Shown here piece after piece: positions 1,485 to 47,647 of a stretch of 64,000 bases of DNA. The notes beneath the pieces were generated by a model, which did not search any database, was not told the origin of the DNA, and worked only from the letters and a program-made list of their open reading frames with translations. Every line of letters begins with the position of its first letter. The stretch's first letter is position 1. Source of the DNA: Verrucomicrobiota bacterium (lineage in GTDB: Bacteria; Verrucomicrobiota; Verrucomicrobiia; Opitutales; Opitutaceae); contig JACRKC010000060.1 of assembly GCA_016235555.1 (NCBI GenBank), positions 1 to 64,000 on the forward strand, read 5' to 3'. Position numbers and translations under genes: made by a program.

Positions 1485-2339
1485 ATGAACACCGGCAACG
1501 AATCCTCCCCGCGCTTCCAGTGGCGTGCGCTCGTCACGTCGCTGGTCGCGTTCTCTTTTGTGCTCCTGCTCGTGAGCGGCGTGATTCTGTTTCTCGCGCC
1601 GCCCGGCCGGGTGGCGAACTGGACGAACTGGACCATCATCGGCCTGCGCAAGGGCGACTGGTCCGGCCTGCATATCTGGTTCAGCGCGGTGTTCCTCGTC
1701 GTGGTGGGTTTCCACCTGTTCTTCAACTGGCGGCCGCTCATGAGCTACCTGAAGGATCGCCTGACGCGCCGTGTCGGCTTCCGCCCGGAATGGCTCGCGG
1801 CGACCGCGCTCGTGGCGGTCGTGATGATCGGCACGCTCAAGCATGTGGCGCCGTTCGAGGCGCTGCTGGAGTGGAACGAGTCGCTGAAGGAAAGCTGGGA
1901 TCGCCCGGCCGAGCGGGCGCCGATTCCGCACGCCGAGTTGCTCACGCTCTCGGCGCTGGCGGAAAAGGGTGGGATCGATCTGGCGACCGCCACCACCCGG
2001 CTCACAGCGAAAGGCATCACCGGCTTCACTGGCGATACGGTCGTGCAGGCGATCGCCGACGCGGCCAAACGCTCGGCGCGCGAACTCTACGACATCATCG
2101 TGACGGGTCCAAAAGGCAGTGCCGGCCACGCCGAAGGCAAGGCCGGTGGCGGCCTCGGCTGGAAGACGCTCGCGCAATTCTGCGCTGACGAAGGCATCGA
2201 GCTCGCGGTGGCGATCTCCCGCCTGAAGGCCGGCGGTGTGAAGGCCGACGAGAAGGTCACGCTGCGCGAACTCGCGACCGCGAGCGGCCGGAAGCCCTAC
2301 GAGTTGCCCGAACTCATCCGCGGCACGCCTCGTCCATGA
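1485..2339 (+). CDS. DUF4405 membrane protein with duplicated C-terminal domain
   Basis: A 284-aa protein. Three transmembrane helices (about 15-38, 60-82 and 100-120) resemble the cytochrome-b-like DUF4405 family, with His residues in the second helix (GLHIW, GFHLFF) as possible haem ligands. The soluble C-terminal half contains two related segments of about 55 aa (about 150-205 and 224-278). Each begins with a Leu-Ser/Ala helix and ends in a 'K/R x ELY/YEL' pattern, which suggests an internal duplication. The last codons (ELIRGTPRP) lie in a 32-bp stretch that recurs at 2962-2993, part of the duplication around the toxin-antitoxin cassette. The gene is convergent with that cassette. Function unknown; a redox membrane role is inferred. 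Confidence 0.75.
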   Translation: MNTGNESSPRFQWRALVTSLVAFSFVLLLVSGVILFLAPPGRVANWTNWTIIGLRKGDWSGLHIWFSAVFLVVVGFHLFFNWRPLMSYLKDRLTRRVGFRPEWLAATALVAVVMIGTLKHVAPFEALLEWNESLKESWDRPAERAPIPHAELLTLSALAEKGGIDLATATTRLTAKGITGFTGDTVVQAIADAAKRSARELYDIIVTGPKGSAGHAEGKAGGGLGWKTLAQFCADEGIELAVAISRLKAGGVKADEKVTLRELATASGRKPYELPELIRGTPRP

Positions 2340-2340
2340 T
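2309..2340. repeat. direct repeat flanking TA cassette 1, left copy
   Basis: A 32-bp stretch identical to 2962-2993. It spans the last codons of the DUF4405 gene on the plus strand and, on the minus strand, a copy of the DUF302 gene's 3' end including its stop codon. With the right copy it brackets the toxin-antitoxin genes at 2381-2910. Confidence 0.9.
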
Positions 2341-2375
2341 GTGGACGAGGGTGTCCTCGACCTCCTTGGGTGCCA
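2313..2375 (-). pseudogene. remnant of a DUF302 gene 3' end
   Basis: Read on the minus strand, this encodes about 20 residues ending in EVEDTLVHIMDEACRG and a stop. It closely matches the end of the intact DUF302 protein at 2966-3364 (EVEDTIIRIMDEACRG). It has no upstream part of the gene and begins within a few bases of the toxin stop codon. It looks like the displaced or duplicated end of the DUF302 gene left on the far side of the inserted toxin-antitoxin cassette. Confidence 0.8.
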
Positions 2376-2380
2376 TGGGA

Positions 2381-2680
2381 TCAGGATCGGATGATGCGGT
2401 CCCGCCAGTAGCCGGGTTCGCGGTGCAGGTGCATGACCGCGACGATCCAAACGTGATCAGGCAGCACGAGGTAGGTGACGCCATACGGAAAGCGATCGGT
2501 GAAGTGCCGGCGCGCCGGTGGATCGAATTGGCGAAAAAGCAGCGGATGGGCGCACACCTCGTGCATCAGCCGCTCCATTTCCCGGTAGAACCGCGCGCCG
2601 AGTTCGGGACTGATGGCGACCTAGTAGTCGAGCGCCTCGCGGAATTCGCGGTTGGCCTCCTCGTGAATGACGCGGTTCAC
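2381..2680 (-). pseudogene. ParE/RelE-type toxin with internal amber stop
   Basis: The frame starts with GTG overlapping the antitoxin stop (GTGA) and runs 99 codons. Codon 20 (2621-2623) is TAG, located where the family has a Tyr in the YYxxISPELGxRF motif. The rest (ISPELGARFY, then the C-terminal strand PDHVWIVAVMHLHREPGYW) is a well-preserved ParE/RelE fold. A single TAC-to-TAG change would explain the stop. Either the toxin is dead, or translation resumes at the ATG at 2578, which would omit the N-terminal helix. Confidence 0.8.
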
Positions 2681-2910
2681 AGACCCAAACGCTTGCGGGC
2701 GTCGGCCAACGCCTCTTCGAGGGGGATGCCCTTGGCGCGTCCGGCTTGGATGTCCTCGATCCGGCGGCGCGTTTCCTGTTTCCACGCCGCCTCGATCTGC
2801 GGGGCGATGCCGCCATGAGCCGCAACGAGGATGCGCTCGACCAATTCCGCCCGCACGTCCTGCGGCAATTGGCGGGATTCGTCGACAAGTTGATCGAGCG
2901 TCATCGGCAT
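2677..2910 (-). CDS. addiction-module antitoxin (Unstab_antitox-like)
   Basis: A 77-aa acidic helical protein with the usual features of the short addiction-module antitoxins paired with ParE/RelE toxins: an N-terminal helix, a central PQIEAAWKQETRRRI segment and the C-terminal IPLEEALADARKRLGL. It would neutralise the downstream toxin and repress the operon. Its stop overlaps the toxin GTG by 4 bp. The partner toxin carries an amber codon, so this may be an orphan antitoxin. It lies 55 bp after the DUF302 stop codon, between two copies of the DUF302 3' end. Confidence 0.8.
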   Translation of the reverse strand: MPMTLDQLVDESRQLPQDVRAELVERILVAAHGGIAPQIEAAWKQETRRRIEDIQAGRAKGIPLEEALADARKRLGL

Positions 2911-2961
2911 GGTGCGGACGGTAGGAGATTACGGACTGACGGCAAGCTCACCGCGTTGTCG

Positions 2962-2993
2962 GAACTCATCCGCGGCACGCCTCGTCCATGATG
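2962..2993. repeat. direct repeat flanking TA cassette 1, right copy
   Basis: Identical over 32 bp to 2309-2340. It includes the stop codon and last eight codons of the intact DUF302 gene. Similarity continues imperfectly for about 30 bp into the gene. Confidence 0.9.
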
Positions 2994-3364
2994 CGGATGA
3001 TGGTATCCTCGACTTCGCGGGCGGTGGCCGCGGCGCCGGGGGCGTCGAACATCGTGAGCAGCATCGTGGGCTTGAGCGTGGCGAGGATCGTGCGGCCGTT
3101 TTCCTCGTAGATCGAGATGCGGCACGGCAGCGCGGTGGAGATGGCGATGGCCTGGTTGAGCACGACCTGGGCGTGTTTGGGGTTGCAGATTTCGAGCACC
3201 CGGCATTCGCGGGCGAAGGGCACGCCCTTGCTTTCCATTTTTTCGCGGAGGTTGTGCACGGCCTGCACGCCGAACTTGTGGGCGGTGGAAATTTCCGGGA
3301 GGCGCGCCCAGACGGTTTCGAGCGGGAGCGTGGTGGAGCGGGTGAGGACGAGGTCGGTGGACAT
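2966..3364 (-). CDS. DUF302 domain protein
   Basis: A 132-aa soluble protein matching the DUF302 family along its whole length (AHKFGVQAVHNLREKMESKGVPF, then LEICNPKHAQVVLNQ and TALPCRISIYEENGRTILATLKPTM-type strands). The family is common beside sulfur and redox membrane proteins; its biochemical role is not established. It is the last gene of the minus-strand run that starts at 14383 and lies 21 bp after the permease gene. Its 3' end is the apparent insertion point of the neighbouring toxin-antitoxin cassette. Confidence 0.85.
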   Translation of the reverse strand: MSTDLVLTRSTTLPLETVWARLPEISTAHKFGVQAVHNLREKMESKGVPFARECRVLEICNPKHAQVVLNQAIAISTALPCRISIYEENGRTILATLKPTMLLTMFDAPGAAATAREVEDTIIRIMDEACRG

Positions 3365-32360: not shown

Positions 32361-32476
32361 GGGCGCATCCCACTTTCTTGCACTGCGGTGGGGCGCTTTT
32401 CCAAGCGCCCAAGCTCGGCGGTTGAAAACCGGCGCTCCTTCGCTCTTTCCGGACTGCAAGAAACTGAGATGCGCCC
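32361..32476. mobile_element. MITE copy 1
   Basis: A 116-bp element with terminal inverted repeats GGGCGCATCCCACTTTC and the imperfect complement (GAAACTGAGATGCGCCC). It is flanked by nearly identical 9-bp sequences, CGAAAACCC left (32352-32360) and CGAAAAACC right (32477-32485), that look like a target-site duplication. The core contains GGCGCTTTTCCAAGCGCC and CGGCGGTTGAAAACCGGCG hairpins. It encodes no protein. Confidence 0.85.
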
Positions 32477-33170: not shown

Positions 33171-33288
33171 GGGGGGCTCATCTCACTTTCCTGCCCGGTG
33201 GAGGGGCGCTTTTCCAAGCGCCCAAGCTCGGCGGTGGAAACCACCGCTCCGTCGCTCTCGCCGGACGGCCAGAAACCGGACTGCGCCC
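33171..33288. mobile_element. MITE copy 2 (degenerate ends)
   Basis: Same core as copies 1 and 3 (GAGGGGCGCTTTTCCAAGC, CGGCGG..CCGCCG hairpins), with decayed ends (GGGCTCATCTCACTTTC left, AGAAACCGGACTGCGCCC right). No clear target duplication remains, so it is probably the oldest of the four. Confidence 0.8.
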
Positions 33289-44271: not shown

Positions 44272-45369
44272 TCAGTCGAGCGTGAGGCGGCGATCCTGGC
44301 GAATCGTCCACGCGCGTTGGCGGGAGCCGTCGGTGAAGGGCGTGGAAAATTCGTAGCCCTCGGGCGTGGGCTGGAAACGCGGCGGCAGGGCGCCGGTGGG
44401 CGCGGTCCAGTTGACCTCGGCGAGCGACGCGGCCCAGCGTCTGTGCGCCCGCTGGAAATCCAACTGCGCGTAGTAGAAATCGAGCGCGAGGGCGCGGGCG
44501 GCACGGCCGGGTTCGGGCGGGACGGCGGCGGGCTGCGGCGTCGGCGCGCGCGTGAACAACACGCGGCCCCACATCTCGGGGCGGTGCATGTCGATCACGC
44601 CTTGCGGCGACCAGACCCAGTTGTCCTCGGGCGTTTTTGGCACTTTCTCGTAACGGCCGCCGGTCGTGGTGATCTGCCACTCGACGCGCGAAAAGTTGAT
44701 GCGCCACACGGCGCCGTCCGCGGGTGCGCGCGGGGCGGCGGTGGCGAGCGTCGCGGGCGGCGCGAAAGCAGTCCACGGAAACGCGAGTTCGAGCGTCCAG
44801 CCGGTGTCGGTGTCGCGCGGATCGTTGAGCGTGCCGCGGAGGTGGACCGCGGACTTGAGGCCGGGGATGGCCCAGTCGTTGCGCGCCTTGCCGCCGTCGA
44901 TGTAGGGCCTCGGCAGAAAGAGATCCCAGCCGGTGTTGAGAGCGTTGAGCTCGAATTCGTAGTAGGCGTGGGTGTCGCCGTCGGGGTCGACGAAGACTTC
45001 GAAGTCGGGATCGTTGAAAATCACGGCGTCGTGCTCGGTGAGTTTGCCCCAGAGGTGTGGCTCCTCGAGTTCGGCGGCGATGTAGAGATAGGTGTCGTCC
45101 CAGAGGATTTTCGCGTGCGTGCGGAAGCGCGGGCGCGGCTTCGCGTCGCCCTCGATGTCGGCGAAGTCGGTCGTCCACGGCGCCGCGGCCCACGCGGGAT
45201 CGTCGAGCTTGCCGTCGATGACGATCGGAGTGGCGGTGTGGCGGGCGACGTAATCGTGCGGCGTGATTCGCGCCATGCGCTCGCGCCACGCGGAGAGAAA
45301 TTTCGGAGCGTCGGCGGCGGGCAGCGCGGCAGCGCTCGCGAGGGCGAAGAGGGCGAAGGTGATTTTCAC
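44272..45369 (-). CDS. CBM9-like exported protein
   Basis: A 365-aa protein. A signal peptide (about 1-18) precedes a family-9 carbohydrate-binding-like domain (about 45-250): PIVIDGKLDDPAWAAAPW, then HAKILWDDTYLYIAAELEEPHLWG and YYEFELNALNTGWDLFLP. The rest includes WRINFSRVEW, which is typical of the stand-alone proteins of this type in Verrucomicrobiota. It starts with GTG at 45369, which overlaps a TGA that ends a residual copy of the dehydrogenase gene's 3' end. It binds sugars or organises a polymer; no catalytic residues are evident. Confidence 0.78.
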   Translation of the reverse strand: MKITFALFALASAAALPAADAPKFLSAWRERMARITPHDYVARHTATPIVIDGKLDDPAWAAAPWTTDFADIEGDAKPRPRFRTHAKILWDDTYLYIAAELEEPHLWGKLTEHDAVIFNDPDFEVFVDPDGDTHAYYEFELNALNTGWDLFLPRPYIDGGKARNDWAIPGLKSAVHLRGTLNDPRDTDTGWTLELAFPWTAFAPPATLATAAPRAPADGAVWRINFSRVEWQITTTGGRYEKVPKTPEDNWVWSPQGVIDMHRPEMWGRVLFTRAPTPQPAAVPPEPGRAARALALDFYYAQLDFQRAHRRWAASLAEVNWTAPTGALPPRFQPTPEGYEFSTPFTDGSRQRAWTIRQDRRLTLD

Positions 45370-45411
45370 GGGTGGGTGACGGTGAGCTCGAGGATGCGGC
45401 CGGGAGCGGTG
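45367..45411 (-). pseudogene. remnant of the sugar-dehydrogenase gene 3' end
   Basis: On the minus strand it reads APGRILELTVTHP and a stop, matching the end of the dehydrogenase at 45932 (TAPGRILELAVAHR). Twenty bases (AGCTCGAGGATGCGGCCGGG) are identical. Its stop overlaps the GTG start of the CBM9 gene, as would be expected if this was once the true end of the dehydrogenase gene before a toxin-antitoxin cassette came in between. Confidence 0.82.
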
Positions 45412-45414
45412 TGT

Positions 45415-45705
45415 CTAGGTTTCCGGAGCGCCGCGTTTGGCGTGCCAGAAGCGAACGACTTCGACTACCCCGGGCCGCACGCGATATATGATGCGAACGG
45501 GATCGTGAATCAGCTCACGCAAGTCTTCGCGCCCGAACTCCGGCACCATGCGACCGGGGAGCGGAAAGTCGGCCGCTTGTTGCGCACGATCAAGGAGCGC
45601 GTCGCCGAAATTCACGGCGCGGCCTGGCGCATCGTGGGCGATTTCCCGCACGATATCATGCAAATCGCTCCGCGCGCTCGGGGCGATGATCAGCTTTTGA
45701 CCCAT
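45415..45705 (-). CDS. ParE/RelE-family toxin
   Basis: A 96-aa protein with the RelE/ParE fold: LIIAPSARSDLHDIVREIAHDAPGRAVNFGDALLDRAQQAADFPLPGRMVPEF, then LRELIHDPVRIIYRVRPGVVEVVRFWHAKR. It would inhibit translation or DNA gyrase. Its start overlaps the antitoxin's end by 16 bp. Unlike the toxin at 2381, it has no internal stop. It lies between two copies of the 3' end of the sugar dehydrogenase gene. Confidence 0.88.
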   Translation of the reverse strand: MGQKLIIAPSARSDLHDIVREIAHDAPGRAVNFGDALLDRAQQAADFPLPGRMVPEFGREDLRELIHDPVRIIYRVRPGVVEVVRFWHAKRGAPET

Positions 45706-45875
45706 GTGCGAAGCTCGCGGCGGATATCGTCGACGGGAATTCCCTCGCCACGATCCAACTCCGCCAAGCCGTCGCGCACGCCCGCGATGAACTCGATTTC
45801 GCGCGCTACCTCGCGAAGCGAAACGTCAGGTGGCAGACTTTGCAGGATAGTCTGGACGGCTTCGCGAGTGCTCAT
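45690..45875 (-). CDS. antitoxin of the ParE/RelE pair
   Basis: A 61-aa acidic protein: STREAVQTILQSLPPDVSLREVAREIEFIAGVRDGLAELDRGEGIPVDDIRREL. It has the build of the short antitoxins paired with ParE/RelE (an N-terminal DNA-binding helix pair and a C-terminal toxin wrap). It lies 56 bp after the dehydrogenase stop, which matches the 55-bp spacing at the other cassette. It is not in any longer reading frame. Confidence 0.8.
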   Translation of the reverse strand: MSTREAVQTILQSLPPDVSLREVAREIEFIAGVRDGLAELDRGEGIPVDDIRRELRTWVKS

Positions 45876-45931
45876 GCGGAGAAAGTGGTGGTTGATCGAC
45901 CGACGCGCAAGAGCGCTCCTTGGCGTTGGGA

Positions 45932-47647
45932 TCAGCGGTGTGCCACCGCAAGCTCGAGGATGCGGCCGGGCGCGGTGAAGGGCTGGCCGTTTTTCGTGCC
46001 GCGGGAGTATTCGAGGATGAACACGCGGCCGCGGGGCGCGAGGTGCAGGTCGATCGGGCGGCCGAGGGCGGCTAGGATTTGGTGGATGTGCGCTTGATAA
46101 TTGCCGGCGGCGTCGCGCGAGAGCGTGGCGCGCAGCACATCGAAGCCGGCGTCGGGCGCGCCGGGGGCATTGATGAAGTTGCCGAAGCGCGTGAGGAGAA
46201 GCGTGCCTCGCCAGCCGGCGGGAAAATCGTCGCCGAGCCACACGATGCCGGCGGGACTCGAGTGTGGGTCGAAGGTGTAGAGAGGTTTTCCGTTCTTCGC
46301 ATCGAAGCCGCCGTCGGGGCCGAGGTTGGGGATCGGCAACGTGAACGTCATCGCGGGCGGTGGCTCGGGCGTGCGGTCGTAGGCCTTGGTCGTCCAGTCG
46401 GCGTAGCGGTAGGGGAAACCGTAGTGCGCGCCGCGGACGATGAGGTTGAGTTCCTCGGGCGCGTGGGCGTCAGGGCCGTTTTCCGTGGCGAACATCTCGC
46501 CGCGATCGTTCCAACAAAAACCGTAGGCGTTGCGGATGCCGCGCGCGTAGATCTCGGGCAACGGTTTCTCGGCGCGCGGATCGAGGCGCCAGAGGCACGC
46601 GGTGATGGGCGTCTCGCCGCCGCCGGCGAATTTCGCCTCGCGGTCGGAGAAACCGCCATCGGTGCGCGCGCCGTTGCCGACGTAAAGAAAGCCGTCGGGG
46701 CCGAACGCCATGTGCTCGACCGCGTGGATGTAACTCGGGCGGCCGTCGTAGCTGACTTGAAACCACGGGCGCGGAGCGGCGGGAGCGCCGTCGATGATCT
46801 TGGTGGTGCGGTAGATCGTGACGATGCTCTGGGCGGGAAAGGTGGCGGCGTTTTGCTGGTTAGCGCCGAGGTAGAGCCGGCCGTCGCGGTCGAGAGCCAG
46901 CGCGAGGACAAAGAGCGGACCGCCCAGATCGCCGGGGCGTTTTTCGAGGTAGTCGTCGGCGCGGAGAATCTGGCGGATGGCGCCGGACGCGACGTCGAGC
47001 AGCCACACGTCGCCCGTCTCGGCGAGAATGTAGAGAGTGCGGCCGATGCCGTCGCTCGCGAGGCGCACGCCTTTTTGCGGGAGGCGGATGACTTCGCGCA
47101 GCGTGAAACCTGCCGGCGCGGGCGGCAGCGGTGGGTATTCTGAGGCGAGGGCCTGCTTCTCGTAAGTGGGAAACTTGGTTGTGGCGCGGACGCGGCTGAC
47201 CGTGGAGGCGTCGACGTCGCCGCCGGGATTGCCCCAGGCGTTGAGCACGTAGGTGAGGATATTGGCGATGGCCCGATCCTCGAGGACGACGGGTGGCATG
47301 AGGCCGTTGTAGTCGCGGCCGTTGACGGTGATTTTTCCGGAAAGACCCTCGCATACGGCGCGAATGGCGCGGTCGAGATCAGCGGCGAGAAAATCGGATT
47401 TCGCGAGCGGCGGAAACGCACCGGACACACCCTCGCCGTTGCCTTGGTGGCACGGGAGGCAGTGGCGCTCGTAGAGCGCGCGGCCGCGTTCGAGGCGCTC
47501 GGCGGGGATGTCGGCGGCGCGGGCGAGTGCGACCAACCCGAGCGCGGCTCCGCAAAATCCGCGAAGAACAGGACGAACGCGCGCCAGGAGTTTGTAACGT
47601 ATTACGTTACAAACTGGATTGAGGTTCCCGGGGCGATGGGGGTTCAC
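45932..47647 (-). CDS. cytochrome c - PQQ-type sugar dehydrogenase (GSDH-like)
   Basis: A 571-aa protein. A signal peptide of about 45 residues is followed by a c-type haem domain (CLPCHQGNGEGVSGAFPPLAKS) and a six-bladed GSDH/NHL propeller (GPLFVLALALDRDGRLYLGANQ, EHMAFGPDGFLYVGNGAR, NAYGFCWNDRGEMFATENGPD, PHSSPAGIVWLG). It oxidises a sugar in the periplasm, with electrons passing to its own haem. It starts at GTG overlapping the dipeptidase stop (GTGA). A palindrome (47590-47614) lies within its signal-peptide codons, in frame. Confidence 0.87.
   Translation of the reverse strand: MNPHRPGNLNPVCNVIRYKLLARVRPVLRGFCGAALGLVALARAADIPAERLERGRALYERHCLPCHQGNGEGVSGAFPPLAKSDFLAADLDRAIRAVCEGLSGKITVNGRDYNGLMPPVVLEDRAIANILTYVLNAWGNPGGDVDASTVSRVRATTKFPTYEKQALASEYPPLPPAPAGFTLREVIRLPQKGVRLASDGIGRTLYILAETGDVWLLDVASGAIRQILRADDYLEKRPGDLGGPLFVLALALDRDGRLYLGANQQNAATFPAQSIVTIYRTTKIIDGAPAAPRPWFQVSYDGRPSYIHAVEHMAFGPDGFLYVGNGARTDGGFSDREAKFAGGGETPITACLWRLDPRAEKPLPEIYARGIRNAYGFCWNDRGEMFATENGPDAHAPEELNLIVRGAHYGFPYRYADWTTKAYDRTPEPPPAMTFTLPIPNLGPDGGFDAKNGKPLYTFDPHSSPAGIVWLGDDFPAGWRGTLLLTRFGNFINAPGAPDAGFDVLRATLSRDAAGNYQAHIHQILAALGRPIDLHLAPRGRVFILEYSRGTKNGQPFTAPGRILELAVAHR
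47590..47614. repeat. 5-nt-loop palindrome, GTTTGTAACG arms
   Basis: Perfect 10-bp arms around TATTA. It is translated as part of the dehydrogenase N-terminus (VCNVIRYKL). Only the outer half of each arm (GTTTGT) is shared with the TCATC-type palindromes. Confidence 0.85.

Follow-up and report, generated by a model that had tools for sequence, protein, structure and literature searches.

Minimal toxin–antitoxin operons between long duplications of host gene ends in Opitutaceae: probable insertion without a transposase

Introduction

It is not obvious how small chromosomal toxin–antitoxin (TA) pairs that have no carrier pass from one genome to another. Restriction–modification (RM) systems are described as having long, variable target duplications on the order of 100 bp (review PMC3874152, citing Nobusato et al. 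2000 and Furuta et al. 2010). RM and TA systems are both covered in that review, which mentions the duplications for RM only, and a full-text search of the open-access literature yielded no account of TA operons with long target duplications. We therefore rate the TA case reported here as a new form of a known phenomenon.

The case comes from a stretch of 64,000 nucleotides (the window; GenBank assembly GCA_016235555.1, contig JACRKC010000060.1, positions 1 to 64,000 of the forward strand) in a Verrucomicrobiota bacterium of the family Opitutaceae, whose genome comprises 8.03 Mb in 140 contigs. A first-pass annotation of the window had placed a TA pair directly behind an intact DUF302 gene and had noted a second copy of the 3' end of that gene on the far side of the pair.

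A TA operon inside a duplicated gene junction

The open reading frames and matches to PF03625, PF09720 and PF05016 confirmed the TA pair at 2381–2910 behind the DUF302 gene, which ends at 2966 (Table 1). Alignment of the flanks extended the reported 32 bp of identity between the two DUF302 ends to a direct repeat of 73 nucleotides with 85% identity, which surrounds a ParE/Unstab_antitox operon of 579 bp and scores 51, compared with a 99th percentile of 22 for mismatched flanks. Beyond what the annotation had seen, this repeat also contains the 3' end of the left neighbour, DUF4405, so that the ends of both neighbouring genes are duplicated. The two genes are convergent and overlap by 26 bp, and the overlap lies inside the 32-bp block that is identical between the copies. 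Each gene is whole on its own side of the cassette and is represented by a stub on the opposite side.

Table 1. Features of the two TA loci in the window
Feature	Position	Strand	Evidence
DUF4405 (cytochrome b-like) gene, left neighbour, intact	1485–2339	+	ORF; PF14358; orthologue C-termini
Left copy of the 73-bp duplication: intact DUF4405 end and decayed orphan DUF302 3' end	2292–2364		Repeat alignment; mismatch distribution
32-bp block identical to 2962–2993, with the 26-bp gene overlap	2310–2341		Repeat alignment; mismatch distribution
Inserted cassette, 579 bp, minimal TA operon	2365–2943	-	Cassette-boundary listing
ParE-family toxin, GTG start, TAG at codon 20	2381–2680	-	PF05016 upon read-through
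Antitoxin Unstab_antitox, intact	2677–2910	-	ORF; PF09720
Right copy of the 73-bp duplication: intact DUF302 end and decayed DUF4405 3' end (KLTALSELIRGTPRP stub)	2944–3016		Repeat alignment; orthologues; mismatch distribution
DUF302 gene, right neighbour, intact	2966–3364	-	ORF; PF03625
Orphan 3' end of GSDH-like gene, adjoining the start of the CBM9 gene (44272–45369)	45366–45411		Repeat alignment; PF06452
Second cassette: minimal TA operon of 520 bp, with 3 bp between toxin stop and repeat	45412–45931	-	Cassette-boundary listing
ParE toxin 2, intact	45415–45705	-	PF05016
Antitoxin of second pair	45690–45875	-	ORF; homologues next to toxin in L209 and L210
Intact-gene copy of the duplication, GSDH-like 3' end (TAPGRILELAVAHR*)	45932–45977		Repeat alignment

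The DUF4405 stub was recognized from its translation. Read on the plus strand, the copy that adjoins the intact DUF302 gene (the right one) gives ...KLTALSELIRGTPRP. DUF4405 orthologues end in KPYELVELLRAK, KPYDLVESLRPKP or KPYGLIEVIRGQPQG (among them KPYELVELLR.. and KPYGLIEVIRG..), and the window protein itself ends in KPYELPELIRGTPRP. The right-copy translation resembles the orthologue ends, and the right-hand stub is therefore a decayed DUF4405 end. The differences between the two copies are unevenly spread, with 6 mismatches in the 22 positions belonging to DUF4405 only, 5 in the 25 belonging to DUF302 only and none in the 26 of the overlap (Fisher p=0.006). This pattern is as expected if each copy has been constrained only where it still codes.

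The operon combines a PF05016 toxin with a PF09720 antitoxin. The toxin frame is interrupted by an in-frame TAG at 2621–2623 (minus strand, codon 20) and matches ParE_toxin when read through the stop; the antitoxin frame is unbroken. On these reading frames, the toxin is predicted to be non-functional and the addiction module of the first cassette appears to be decaying.

The same layout had been claimed for a second TA locus at 45.4 kb, next to an unrelated gene, and the alignment bears this out: an antitoxin and a ParE toxin lie between 46-bp repeats of 80% identity (score 28, against the same 99th percentile of 22). The duplicated piece is the end of a GSDH-like gene, touches the start of a CBM9 gene, and both genes are kept. 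The antitoxin of this pair had no Pfam match. Relatives of its toxin were found in no phage or viral contig, and the only plasmid matches, distant ones in Nostoc, identify no vector.

Duplications recur at TA loci

The annotation had also proposed a search for further TA pairs whose flanks duplicate the end of a neighbouring gene. We fetched all PF05016 and PF09720 loci of the same genome, aligned the left flank of each locus with its right flank, and compared the best score with those of mismatched flanks; the survey thus covers the loci around the searched genes. Nine of the 21 distinct ParE/Unstab_antitox loci in this genome had repeats far above mismatched flanks, and the host genes at these positives include LysR, rhamnogalacturonan lyase, adenylate cyclase, GH95 and DUF4256. 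Across the family, where positives required a score of at least 24 and an identity of at least 70%, repeats were found at 25 of 83 PF09720 loci. Removal of three loci with attC-like flanks left 22, and a strict count, which also omits repeats that look dispersed, left 15. Most TA loci had no detectable duplication.

VapC/PIN loci gave 0 of 13 in the window's own genome, and we considered whether duplication was specific to ParE-type pairs; this was rejected when 6 of 25 VapC/PIN loci in the family proved positive (5 by the strict count). As a non-TA control, DUF302 loci showed no such repeats (0/27). In the strict comparison, TA loci were positive in 24 of 104 cases and non-TA loci in 0 of 27 (p=0.004), with dispersed intergenic repeats (L053, L097, L102, L109, L115, L119, L121 and L231) excluded and attC-like flanks named by eye, and with a small control set. 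The duplications range from 34 to 235 bp, and gene 5' ends are duplicated as well as 3' ends (DUF4256, ALDH, LacI and thyX-like genes).

A sliding test along the window revealed few comparable repeats, the strongest of which, at 32.4 kb, is a dispersed one. This is an 86-bp intergenic repeat of the REP/MITE type (GGGGCGCTTTTCCAAGCGCCC...), found at 32361–32446 and 33174–33258 on either side of a small open reading frame. The window also carries a PIN/VapC-like gene (PF01850; 57982–58344), which has no flanking repeats.

Empty and filled sites in relatives

Empty sites with a single copy of the repeated block had been named by the annotation as the support to look for, and this expectation was borne out in a sister case and not at the window locus. 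Among the DUF302 and DUF4405 orthologues of 252 family genomes there was no uninserted version of the window site, and DUF4405 adjoined DUF302 in no relative examined in that search.

The sister case concerns a TA pair that lies between nuoN and a thyX-like gene (PF02511) in genome G105 (L100). In five congeneric genomes (L181, L182, L185, L187 and L189), nuoN and the thyX-like gene are adjacent, there is no TA pair, and the start of the gene is single. A related insertion at the same thyX-like gene in G040 (L111) has 93 bp, comprising the promoter and first codons, on both sides of the TA pair, and both of these copies match the single native copy of the relatives. The left copy in G105 is without the native spacer, and we infer that it has since lost the promoter part by a later deletion. 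A one-sided donor model, which L100 had suggested, was weakened by the full 93-bp copy on each side in G040.

Two further comparisons concern other genes. The 5' end of an ALDH gene is doubled in G040, where the gene carries a TA pair, and single in congeneric G080, where the pair is absent, although the spacer next to it is not the same in the two genomes. In G103 (L241, 3592–5518), three SDR gene 3' ends alternate with two modules in the order SDR end, VapBC, end, ParDE-type, end, and related G039 (L242) has the VapBC step alone at an SDR gene end. The SDR series suggests successive insertions at one gene end.

Boundaries of the inserted unit

Between the repeats there is little beyond the TA operon itself, usually 520–660 bp, and no transposase or integrase gene. 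One repeat generally lies within 0–30 bp of the toxin stop, and the other is mostly 30–60 bp away from the antitoxin start. Homologues of the second window pair in two Opitutaceae MAGs have unrelated surroundings and are 89% identical at the nucleotide level over a unit that runs exactly from 69 bp before the antitoxin ATG to 24 bp past the toxin stop, which matches the cassettes, where the toxin stop is usually 0–30 bp from a repeat. VapBC pairs common to several genomes likewise define units of 630–646 bp. Terminal inverted repeats of the cassettes scored the same as mismatched controls, the cassette ends had no striking motif beyond a promoter-like CTTGC, and the junctions had no striking microhomology.

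A model for the insertion

On the basis of the architecture, its recurrence, the unit boundaries and the empty sites in the sister case, all of which are observed directly, we propose that a minimal TA operon inserted without a transposase and with a long target duplication, as in RM systems (probability roughly 0.7). The annotation's view that a cassette lacking an integrase, and duplicating a gene end, arrived by another route than site-specific integration is supported. In the window, a bare DNA unit reaching from the promoter to just past the toxin stop (~0.5–0.65 kb) would have entered the DUF4405/DUF302 junction and doubled a target of ~73 bp (D), and the corresponding order, left gene, D, TA, D, right gene, is what the sequence has. 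Neither gene lost its end, because the overlapping ends of both lie within D and one full version of each was retained. On each side, the stub of the opposite gene has decayed and the overlap, which codes in both copies, has stayed identical, presumably through selection on the coding parts.

The clustering at gene ends could be a survival bias: a duplication that covers a gene end leaves that gene whole, and insertions of this kind, which leave the gene working, would explain why gene ends are where cassettes are seen. Direct repeats are prone to excision, and retention of the cassettes in spite of this may be due to addiction. A cell that lost the cassette through recombination between the two copies would suffer the effect of the toxin, a penalty that would last only while the toxin is intact and may have lapsed here with the TAG. 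As for the duplication, its most likely origin would be a short captured DNA fragment that was copied or joined into a break, with a target of tens to ~150 nucleotides copied again. Such re-copying could proceed by template switching or by fill-in of a long staggered break, using host repair or replication enzymes.

Divergence of the copies and alternative explanations

The copies in each repeat are 75–97% identical, mostly 75–95%, among the species-level representatives compared, with a maximum of 97% at L117 in G007. Since they are mostly 75–95% identical rather than identical, no case is very young. At 15 coding loci, the differences fall on the three codon positions in the ratio 44:45:88; 48 codons differ synonymously and 85 non-synonymously, and none has become a stop. 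This is close to the expectation for one freely drifting copy paired with a selected copy that changes mostly at silent sites, and is unlike two selected alleles. The lack of stops in the stubs is slightly low for pure neutral decay and is in mild tension with it.

These figures bear on the rival that fares best, homology-facilitated illegitimate recombination. DNA from a relative, carrying a TA pair and the same gene, would have recombined homologously in the gene on one side and been joined illegitimately on the other, so that one copy would stem from the donor and the stub would be what remains of the recipient's original end. The process is established in transformable bacteria (PMC3240628) and has been proposed for type VI secretion system (T6SS) effector–immunity arrays (PMC5361080). 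The 5–25% difference between copies fits it, as does L112, where the N-terminus of the intact ALDH gene and its upstream region differ from the stub, which could mean donor DNA. In the window, however, each of the two genes flanking the cassette is whole on one side and a stub on the other, the divergence tracks coding constraint, the ratio of 44:45:88 is too flat for two alleles both under selection, and both 93-bp copies in G040 match the native single copy. We therefore consider this explanation improbable in general, and possible for some loci, L112 in particular.

Far less probable are site-specific integration into gene 3' ends, with the integrase supplied in trans, and capture as an integron cassette. 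Gene 3' ends are indeed common targets, and the annotation had pointed to this likeness; it did not hold up, as the targets have no shared core and vary in length, 5' ends are also duplicated, and the cassettes lack an integrase gene, terminal inverted repeats and any end motif other than the promoter-like CTTGC. At four TA loci of relatives (L048, L063, L081 and L094), attC-like repeats (GCCTAAC...GTTAG; recognized by eye, one of them below the identity cut) suggest that integron cassettes occur in the family, but the window repeats are coding sequence of the host genes and contain no attC.

It is about equally improbable that the toxin drives its own insertion, for example through gyrase poisoning that leads to breaks and illegitimate joining. 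Some characterized ParE proteins poison gyrase, and many of the cassettes are of the ParE type. Cassettes with VapC, an RNase toxin, have the same duplications (L212, L214, L216, L217 and L240), which makes a gyrase-driven, ParE-specific origin unnecessary. Finally, a tandem DUF302 duplication followed by decay, which the annotation had named as its refuting alternative, or repeats of a gene family brought together by assembly, in either case unconnected with the TA genes, would account for the orphan stub and nothing more. This explanation is excluded in practice by the end of the unrelated DUF4405 gene in the DUF302-side copy, by the repeat-free DUF302 loci elsewhere and by the association of repeats with TA cassettes across unrelated host genes.

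Relation to known systems

Insertion of a minimal TA operon with target duplication resembles that of RM systems, as reviewed in PMC3874152, in that an addiction module without its own transposase is flanked by a direct, variable target duplication of ~100 bp. It differs in that the units are type II TA operons of ~0.55 kb in Opitutaceae (Verrucomicrobiota), occur at high frequency and preserve gene ends. The T6SS effector–immunity arrays of Vibrio (PMC5361080) likewise have a small toxic module at a gene end, orphan sequence and serial arrays, comparable to the SDR series of G103. Those arrays, however, rely on homologous anchoring in a shared upstream region and displace the ancestral effector, whereas the cassettes here enter unrelated genes and leave them whole. 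The TA cassettes found in chromosomal integrons are also small, promoter-bearing units without mobility genes of their own, but are set apart by the attC site that is absent from the window repeats. In domain content and operon order, the first window pair matches ParE (PF05016)/Unstab_antitox (PF09720) pairs; unlike these, its toxin is broken, and the second pair has an antitoxin outside Pfam.

More tentatively, and at a little under even odds, type II TA operons of Opitutaceae may be autonomous minimal mobile units (~0.55 kb, with no mobility gene and no defined ends) that are spread by a shared host DNA-capture pathway producing target duplications of 40–150 bp. RM and TA addiction modules would then together make up a class of mobile elements that need no transposase and persist through selection alone. 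The loci tie TA mobility to the long target duplications of the RM type, and they supply unit boundaries, empty and filled sites, repeated use of a target and, in the decay of the stubs, an internal clock, with which the mechanism becomes testable at the strain level.

In several genera (L110 in G002, L100 in G105 and L111 in G040), TA cassettes have entered nuoN at its 3' end or the gap that follows, and the nuoN end may be an insertion hot spot.
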